Assembly: GCF_000174415.1 (NCBI RefSeq)
Contig: NZ_ACJM01000001.1
Coordinates: forward strand, 310,001-374,000
Length of the DNA: 64,000 nucleotides
Direction: 5' to 3'
Source: Dethiobacter alkaliphilus AHT 1
GTDB taxonomy: Bacteria; Bacillota; Dethiobacteria; Dethiobacterales; Dethiobacteraceae
Positions 62,074 to 64,000 of this stretch are shown piece after piece. The first letter of the stretch is position 1. Every line of letters starts with the position of its first letter. The position numbers and the translations under genes are program-made. Under the pieces are notes generated by a model. The model was not told the origin of the DNA and ran no database searches. It saw only the letters and a list, made by a program, of their open reading frames with translations.

Positions 62074-62346
62074 ATGCCAAACATTAAATCCAGTACGGAC
62101 TTAAGGAATAACTATAATGAAATTTCTACATTCTGCCGTGAAAGCAGGGAGCCTGTCTTTATTACGAAAAACGGACAGGGTGATTTGGCCGTTATGAGCA
62201 TGGAGGTTTATGAGATGCTAATCGGTAAGCTTGAACTATACCGCCAGCTTGACGAGGGAAGGGCGGCGGTAGCAGAGGGCAGGAAGCGTCCGCTCGAAGA
62301 TGTCATGAGAGACATCCGCCAGGAAATTAAAGATGGCAAGATATAA
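62074..62346 (+). CDS. Phd/YefM-family antitoxin
   Basis: 90 residues. The Phd/YefM N-terminal DNA-binding fold is recognisable (IKSSTDLRNNYNEISTFCRESREPVFITKNGQGDLAVMSMEVYEML), with an acidic helical C-terminus for toxin binding. AAGGGGG precedes ATG 62074. The stop overlaps the toxin start by 14 bp. Confidence 0.88.
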   Translation: MPNIKSSTDLRNNYNEISTFCRESREPVFITKNGQGDLAVMSMEVYEMLIGKLELYRQLDEGRAAVAEGRKRPLEDVMRDIRQEIKDGKI

Positions 62347-62647
62347 GGTTGACATATCTGAACCTGCTGAAAACGACCTTCGCGACATTGTTAGATATAT
62401 CTCCGCGCAACTGTCTGCGCCTATGACGGCAATTAAGATGATGGATACCATGAACGAAGCGATAGCGGGACTTGCTCTTATGCCGCAAAAATGCTCTTTT
62501 GTGACGGATGAAAGACTTGCAATGTTAGGATATCGCAAGCTGCCCGTAAAGAACTATATTGTCTTTTTCACGATAAACGAAAAGTCAAAAGTCGTTGATG
62601 TGGAGAGAATCCTCTACACAAGACGCGACTGGCACCGTTTCCTCTAA
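62333..62647 (+). CDS. RelE/ParE-family toxin
   Basis: 104 residues with the ParE/RelE pattern: YKVDISEPAENDLRDIVRYISAQLSAP, MPQKC...LGYRKLPVKNYIVFFTINEKSKVVDVERILYTRRDW. The GYRKLPV...YIVFF and R(I/V)LY..RDW segments are diagnostic. RelE-type toxins cut mRNA on the ribosome and ParE-type toxins block gyrase; sequence alone does not decide. Cognate to the overlapping antitoxin. Confidence 0.88.
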   Translation: MARYKVDISEPAENDLRDIVRYISAQLSAPMTAIKMMDTMNEAIAGLALMPQKCSFVTDERLAMLGYRKLPVKNYIVFFTINEKSKVVDVERILYTRRDWHRFL

Positions 62648-62769: not shown

Positions 62770-62798
62770 TTGCAATGAAAAAAATAATCTGCTACAAT
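62770..62798 (+). promoter_or_regulatory. Promoter of the large candidate RNA
   Basis: TTGCAA (62770-62775), 17 bp, TACAAT (62793-62798). The expected start at about 62805 is one base before the 5' arm of the closing stem. Confidence 0.75.
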
Positions 62799-62804
62799 GT
62801 CACT

Positions 62805-63258
62805 AAGCACCATCCCTATAGTAAGTCAGGTTAAACATTTTTTGTAAGAGCGATTTCGTTTTTTGCAGGAAGTAGTTACCAGTCTTTTAAGTGGATCGTG
62901 TTTTTTTGTTTTCGGTTTAGTGTTTTAACAAGTAAGAAGAAGCAATTTGGTATTAAGAAGGTAAGAGGTTGGAAGTTAAAAAGTAAAAAGTAAAGAGTAA
63001 GAAGTAAGTGTAAAAGGTTAACAGTAAGAGTAAGTTAAGAGAAGTAAGCATTAAAAGTAAGATGGAGAAGTTAGTGAGAAGTAAAGATTAAAAGTAACAA
63101 GTAAAAGCAAGATGTAAGAAGTAAGGAAGTGCTTTAAGTATCTTTAAGAGGTTAATGTTAGTAGAAGTTTCTCGAGTGTGTTTGTCAAGTTGTTTGGTAA
63201 ACCTATAGGGATGGTGCTACTTGTAAAAGAGGTCTGCATAGCTGCAGACCTCTTTTTA
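62805..63258 (+). ncRNA. Candidate large structured non-coding RNA closed by a 16-bp stem
   Basis: The 5' arm AGCACCATCCCTATAG (62806-62821) is perfectly complementary to CTATAGGGATGGTGCT (63203-63218). Just past the 3' arm lies a terminator, AAAGAGGTCTGCA-TAGC-TGCAGACCTCTTT (63226-63255) plus T-run. Between the arms the first ~110 nt are U-rich. About 62930-63140 is purine-rich with some 15 degenerate AGTAAG or AAGTAA units, stop codons in all frames and no ribosome-site/ORF pair. Promoter, closing stem and terminator fit together as one ~450-nt RNA. I do not recognise it as OLE, GOLLD, ROOL or 6S RNA. A MITE-like element with 16-bp ends is the main alternative. Confidence 0.65.
62930..63140 (+). 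repeat. Purine-rich degenerate AGTAAG repeat tract
   Basis: About 210 bp almost free of C on the + strand, built from variants such as AAGTAAAAAGTAAAGAGTAA and GAAGTAAG at irregular 6-10 nt spacing. Not a CRISPR: the units are too short and there are no unique spacers. Confidence 0.75.
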
Positions 63259-63548: not shown

Positions 63549-63611
63549 AGACATGATTAATTCGGATTTTGGGAAATACTATGTTCAACGATCCAGCAGG
63601 AGGACTTATTG

Positions 63612-64000
63612 GTGAGAGACCGATTTACAAATGGATTCATCTCTGGTATTGTTGGTAGCTTAATTGGGGTTCCAATCAGTTTTATACTGCAAGCTTTGGG
63701 GTTTGCTGAGGTTCAAGCAGTAGATTTTACAGCTAAGCTGCTTTATGGCAGACCTGCTATGATGACCAGTGAGATTGTTTGGGCAACAATTATTGGCATA
63801 GGGTTTGCGGGAATATTTGGGGCATTATTTGCCTATTTAATCTTGGCCATTGATAGCAAATACTTGTATCTCAAAGGACTCCTTTACGGTCCCATAGTTT
63901 TTTATCTCTGGTACTCTTTTGTGCTTTTGACCATTGTTGGACAAGTGGAAGTTATAACATTGACTACATCAATTGCAAACACAGTTGCCAACATGATTTA
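63612..64000 (+). CDS. Membrane protein, partial; paralogue of the gene at 25772
   Basis: Open from GTG 63612 (GGAGGA seven nt upstream; TTG 63609 also possible) through the window edge, 129 codons seen. Starts VRDRFTNGFISGIVGSLIGVPISFILQALGF, with later TSEIVWATIIGIGFAGIFGALFAYLILA and YLKGLLYGPIVFYLWY. The order of segments matches the 150-residue protein at 25772, so the two are paralogues. Function unknown. Confidence 0.75.
   Translation, partial: MRDRFTNGFISGIVGSLIGVPISFILQALGFAEVQAVDFTAKLLYGRPAMMTSEIVWATIIGIGFAGIFGALFAYLILAIDSKYLYLKGLLYGPIVFYLWYSFVLLTIVGQVEVITLTTSIANTVANMI

Follow-up and report, generated by a model that had tools for sequence, protein, structure and literature searches.

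6S RNA refolds between states. Like the RNA described here, it is the product of a stand-alone gene and has paired ends (RF00013). The large bacterial SRP RNA (RF01854) likewise comes from an RNA gene and has paired ends, and in f135 genomes it is a near neighbour of our RNA. OLE, GOLLD and ROOL (for example, PMC12286853) offer a second parallel, as large structured RNAs that lack open reading frames (ORFs) and whose function is unsettled. Attenuators and riboswitches offer a third: mutually exclusive helices share one strand, and one of these helices is followed by a U-run.

The locus lies in a 64,000-nt stretch of the Dethiobacter alkaliphilus AHT 1 genome (contig NZ_ACJM01000001.1, positions 310,001 to 374,000 of the forward strand), the whole of which we call the window. 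An earlier note on this DNA had described a promoter, a pair of inverted arms and a terminator. The promoter, TTGCAA-17-TACAAT, is where the note had put it, with an extended −10 TG besides, and the arms are indeed a perfect 16-nt complement, with 381 nt between them. Their length is beyond chance: inverted repeats reached 13 nt at most when 62796-63224 was shuffled 1,000 times with dinucleotides preserved, and 16-nt arms arose in none (0/1,000). The terminator hairpin has 14 pairs; it begins 6 nt past the right arm and not eight bases, the one detail in which the note was off. The predicted transcript opens with AAGCACCATCCCTATAG from 62805 and folds with z = −3.6 relative to shuffles. A search of the genome's contigs found the RNA in a single copy. 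Directly upstream is a type II toxin–antitoxin pair, identified with Pfam as a Phd/YefM antitoxin (62074-62346) and a ParE toxin (62333-62647).

Table 1. The RNA gene and its parts, in positions of the 64,000-nt window.
Feature	Position	Strand	Basis or remark
Promoter, sigma-A type, TTGCAA-17-TGnTACAAT	62770..62798	+	Window sequence and family comparison; −35 box TTGCAA 62770-62775, −10 box TACAAT 62793-62798, spacer 17 nt, extended −10 TG
Whole RNA gene, predicted start A62805 to terminator end	62805..63257	+	Conserved −10 spacing, terminator, homologs
P1 5' arm of closing stem, AGCACCATCCCTATAG	62806..62821	+	AGCAC-C-AUCC part is also the predicted P1alt 5' strand
P2, 5' hairpin domain	62822..62884	+	Base helix with GG(U)/ACC; GAC/GUC in most members
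Conserved motif GGAUCGUG and U-run (family GGRUnGUGUUUUUU), predicted P1alt 3' strand	62893..62907	+	Pair counts, truncated folds
AGTAAG-rich, C-poor insertion, ~190 nt, private to the window copy	62926..63122	+	Absent from nearest relatives in alignments
Conserved 3' domain, AAGGAAGTGCTTTAAGTATCTTTAAGAGGTTAATG	63123..63160	+	Aligned with AGTTAGGAAGTGTATTAAGTATCTTTATGGTTACAA of relatives G047, G210, G143 and G175
P1 3' arm of closing stem, CTATAGGGATGGTGCT	63203..63218	+	Inverted repeat and closing-stem comparison
Intrinsic terminator	63225..63256	+	Hairpin after stem in 36/36 complete members

BLAST over 60 related genomes returned three relatives, each then inspected base for base. Two are complete; the third, in G002, lacks its 5' end where the end of a contig cuts the RNA. 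All three were recovered with R1, a covariance model built on the 5' domain, which also detected four more in a Bacillota-wide sample of 398 genomes. With BLAST and covariance models combined, the family comprises 41 loci in 40 genomes of anaerobic Bacillota (the window genome counted). The RNA was detected in 4 of 98 genomes of the window's class, window included (R1, confirmed with model R3), in 33 of 113 from the class to which Desulfotomaculum gibsoniae and D. acetoxidans belong (a second model, with the same 33 from a third), and in 2 of 3 and 1 of 4 genomes of two small classes; because detection in the sample hinges on a first-look filter, the counts of genomes without it are upper bounds. 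D. acetoxidans carries two diverged copies (L121 and L122, 395 and 292 nt), each with promoter, closing stem and terminator.

The family is absent from Rfam 15. At the gathering threshold nothing matched the RNA in the window, 7 relatives and 15 further loci, while the same scans did recover nearby SRP RNA, tRNA and a lysine riboswitch; permissive scans gave chance-level matches only. BLASTN against phages and plasmids gave no match to the RNA. Nineteen loci on viral contigs that carry a 16-base motif are not family members (best score with model R3 15 bits, E = 0.7), and BLAST matches in G009, G028 and G022 appear to be unrelated DNA in which the family features were missing on reading. We found no literature on this RNA among sources outside subscription papers, and an earlier description is possible.

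To the counts of gene anatomy, 36 complete extracted copies contributed, the window copy among them. All 36 have a −35 box of TTG type; the 17-nt promoter spacer and the extended −10 TG each occur in 35 of 36, and the predicted RNA start falls exactly 6 nt past the −10 box in 33 of 36. In every copy (36/36) the closing stem is followed, a few bases on, by a terminator hairpin. The register of start, closing stem and terminator that the earlier note had pointed out in the window is thereby repeated across the complete copies, and the shared order of parts runs promoter, start, closing stem, 5' hairpin, GGRUnGUGUUUUUU, terminator. Excluding the terminator, the RNA measures 221–414 nt, and no copy is longer than that of the window (414 nt vs 221–393 nt in the other 35). 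Its C content is 13.9% across the family vs 20.4% in the flanks, and 7.2% in the window copy. The note had seen no ORF with a ribosome site; the longest ORF within the window RNA has 21 codons, and the longest per member (11–63 codons) is inconsistent between members, with none conserved. With this fixed register, compensatory change and no conserved ORF, the locus is, on comparative grounds, a probable stand-alone structured non-coding RNA gene.

Two further features were seen in Desulfotomaculum-type copies. The terminator sequence GAGAGAAGGC...GCCTTCTCTC is kept across many of them (L058, L060, L061, L063 and others), a conservation that exceeds what a terminator needs. A Shine–Dalgarno-like AAGGAGGA is conserved in the middle domain of many of them (among them L063, L068, L069, L079, L081 and L087); because no start codon follows it, and because it is missing from Dethiobacter-type copies, we ruled out a leader peptide or ribosome trap as a family trait.

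The middle of the RNA aligns poorly between lineages, so pairs were counted only for P1, the base of P2 and the P1alt helix described below. For P2, consensus folds and pair counts on the family alignments gave 90–94% of cells paired. For P1, 95.3% of cells were paired in 28 sequences, and its covariation score was reached in none of 500 shuffles. One P1 pair is C-G in 17 sequences, U-A in 7 and U-G in 2, and a second is U-G, U-A or C-G in 10, 7 and 6 sequences, respectively; most of the remaining pairs show either no change or change in one strand, and the covariation support, though real, hence falls on few positions. The perfect 16-bp stem of the window is itself a variant, as in other members a single additional base bulges out close to the end (GGATGGTTGCT). 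Comparison across homologs shows P1 pairing to be preserved under sequence change: the arms diverge with pairing kept and not without compensation, which strongly supports the earlier note's view of a functional RNA rather than a chance repeat.

RNAalifold on the 5' domain alone paired the arm AAGCAC-C-AUCC with the conserved GGRUnGUGUUU, forming the helix P1alt. That the 5' arm of P1 is also complementary to GGRUnGUGUUU is new here; the single closing stem of the earlier note stands as far as P1 pairing goes, but the arm's second possible partner had been overlooked. The 10 pairs of P1alt are kept in 98.6% of cells across 29 sequences from several classes. Two positions of the motif vary freely. 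Opposite U, the R is A or G, both of which pair; opposite C, the n is A, C or U, and a G, with which the helix would be complete, does not occur. Changes in P1alt are one-sided and pair-preserving; since its 5' strand hardly varies, there is no double compensation, and its pair counts are unexceptional relative to shuffled letters, a weaker control than the one for P1. Predicted energies are about −9 kcal/mol for P1alt vs −18 to −29 kcal/mol for P1. Folded without proteins or kinetics, RNAs cut at the U-run were predicted with high probability to form P1alt in 35 of 36 copies (G143 folds otherwise), and full-length RNAs to form P1 in 36 of 36; the second D. acetoxidans copy is one of these 36, whereas L079, in which the standard motif is missing, is not.

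Comparison of loci shows the gene anatomy, the conservation of the 5' domain and the independence from neighbour genes; the working of the RNA by strand exchange we infer. The reading that we favour, and consider fairly likely, is a stand-alone, trans-acting structured RNA that would exchange strands between two states. Transcribed from its own housekeeping promoter, the RNA would start one base ahead of the closing stem and end at its own terminator, giving predicted products of ~220–410 nt plus terminator. During synthesis the 5' arm would first pair with the nearby GGRUnGUGUUU to form P1alt, enclosing P2 and lying just upstream of the U-run. Once the 3' end is made, the stronger distal arm would displace GGRUnGUGUUU, and P1 would seal the molecule, leaving GGRUnGUGUUUUUU free for contact with a protein or another RNA. 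The variable, C-poor middle would accept insertions, the AGTAAG core being one.

With the U-run directly behind it, P1alt resembles an attenuator, and the two could also cause weak pausing or attenuation within the gene. The base of the P1alt helix is rich in A-U and G-U pairs, and several f135 members have an A interrupting the U-run, so the combination would be weak as a terminator; given that weak helix base, we treat internal termination as no more than a possibility. Extended further, the model would make the locus a riboswitch-like attenuator inside a free-standing RNA gene, in which the polymerase would stop at ~100 nt if no signal, protein or pairing partner lets it continue, a proposal that we think unlikely. 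If true, one gene would give rise to RNA of two kinds, one short and the other long and sealed, and a non-coding RNA rather than an mRNA would be regulated.

The principal alternative to strand exchange, possible though somewhat unlikely in our judgement, is that the RNA adopts the closed P1 form only, GGRUnGUGUUUUUU being conserved as a single-stranded binding site to which the arm is complementary by accident. In its favour, P1 exceeds P1alt in strength by a wide margin in all members, full-length folds are always P1, and repeated two-sided base changes are seen in P1 but not in P1alt. Against it stand the retention of the 10 P1alt pairs in 98.6% of cells among several classes and a motif whose variation preserves pairing.

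The earlier note had suggested that the AGUAAG repeats could be a sponge that binds a protein or small RNA in many copies. In the window copy the enrichment is clear, with 8 AGTAAG in 62925-63130 (shuffle mean 2.1, maximum 6), and the shorter GTAAG is above expectation in one group of relatives, f135 (10 vs 2.3). Yet the block is peculiar to the window: the other 35 complete copies hold 0–2 AGTAAG each, neither the nearest relatives nor the f152 group show enrichment of GTAAG, and the ~190-nt segment that separates the U-run from the 3' domain (AAGGAAGTG...AAGTATCTTTA) aligns with no counterpart in the nearest relatives. The conserved parts lie elsewhere in the RNA. With at most two AGTAAG in any other copy, the sponge idea lacks support, and as an account of the RNA we hold it to be very improbable. 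We conclude from these comparisons that the core expanded in this lineage, within a length-tolerant region, and that the family does not function as a sponge.

Gene neighbourhoods bear on whether the RNA could instead be a cis-acting leader or attenuator of the gene downstream. A DUF6789 membrane protein gene follows the RNA both in the window (63609-64000) and in G002 (L031:13027-13575), and dsrC follows it in many f152 genomes, where the RNA has rlmH and dsrC as neighbours. A strong terminator nevertheless closes the RNA in every copy, and the neighbours vary by lineage: f135 genomes have the RNA beside a DEAD-box helicase and beside tRNA and SRP RNA, and g309 has it adjoining an ArsR-like regulator (identified by eye). 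Loci compared between lineages revealed no conserved regulated gene downstream, and we give a cis-acting role hardly any credence; because the neighbours differ by lineage, the RNA probably acts in trans. DsrC co-occurrence was set aside as a functional lead, since DsrC is near universal in the Desulfotomaculum-type class (109 of 113 genomes, vs 33 of 113 for the RNA) and its adjacency says nothing of function. The G002 DUF6789 protein is below the Pfam cut-off, and the gene was not seen beside the RNA elsewhere. In G047 the RNA lies beside an ORF (L029:8927-9673, − strand) that joins a Phd/YefM antitoxin domain to a Uma2 nuclease-like domain.

A MITE or some other mobile element, or an inverted repeat arisen by chance, would fit the long terminal inverted arms and the patchy presence in the window's class, but is almost certainly wrong: shuffles exclude chance, the arms vary with pairing kept, the promoter and terminator stand in fixed register outside them, and, where the earlier note had said that many copies flanked by target-site duplications would mark a MITE, there is one copy per genome apart from the two in D. 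acetoxidans.

What emerges is a well-supported, unnamed RNA family that spans anaerobic Bacillota of several classes, sulfate reducers and soda-lake bacteria among them, for which Desulfotomaculum gibsoniae, D. acetoxidans and Desulfoscipio sp. L provide anchor species with complete genomes. A covariance model of the family would let annotators find the RNA and seek its expression in existing data, and the sequence-conserved core with its two-partner arm is a concrete structural hypothesis, testable in vitro.

Set beside the known systems, the RNA differs from each. It has no RF00013 match and a length and sequence unlike those of 6S RNA, and an ordinary 6S RNA of the same genome is encoded elsewhere (contig C6, 95.7 bits). 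The large bacterial SRP RNA is a separate gene, and both genes stand side by side. Unlike OLE, GOLLD and ROOL, the window RNA has no Rfam match, is smaller and C-poor, and has a 5' arm with two potential partners. Whereas attenuators and riboswitches have mutually exclusive helices like those proposed here, this family has no conserved regulated gene downstream, and its RNA ends at a terminator of its own.
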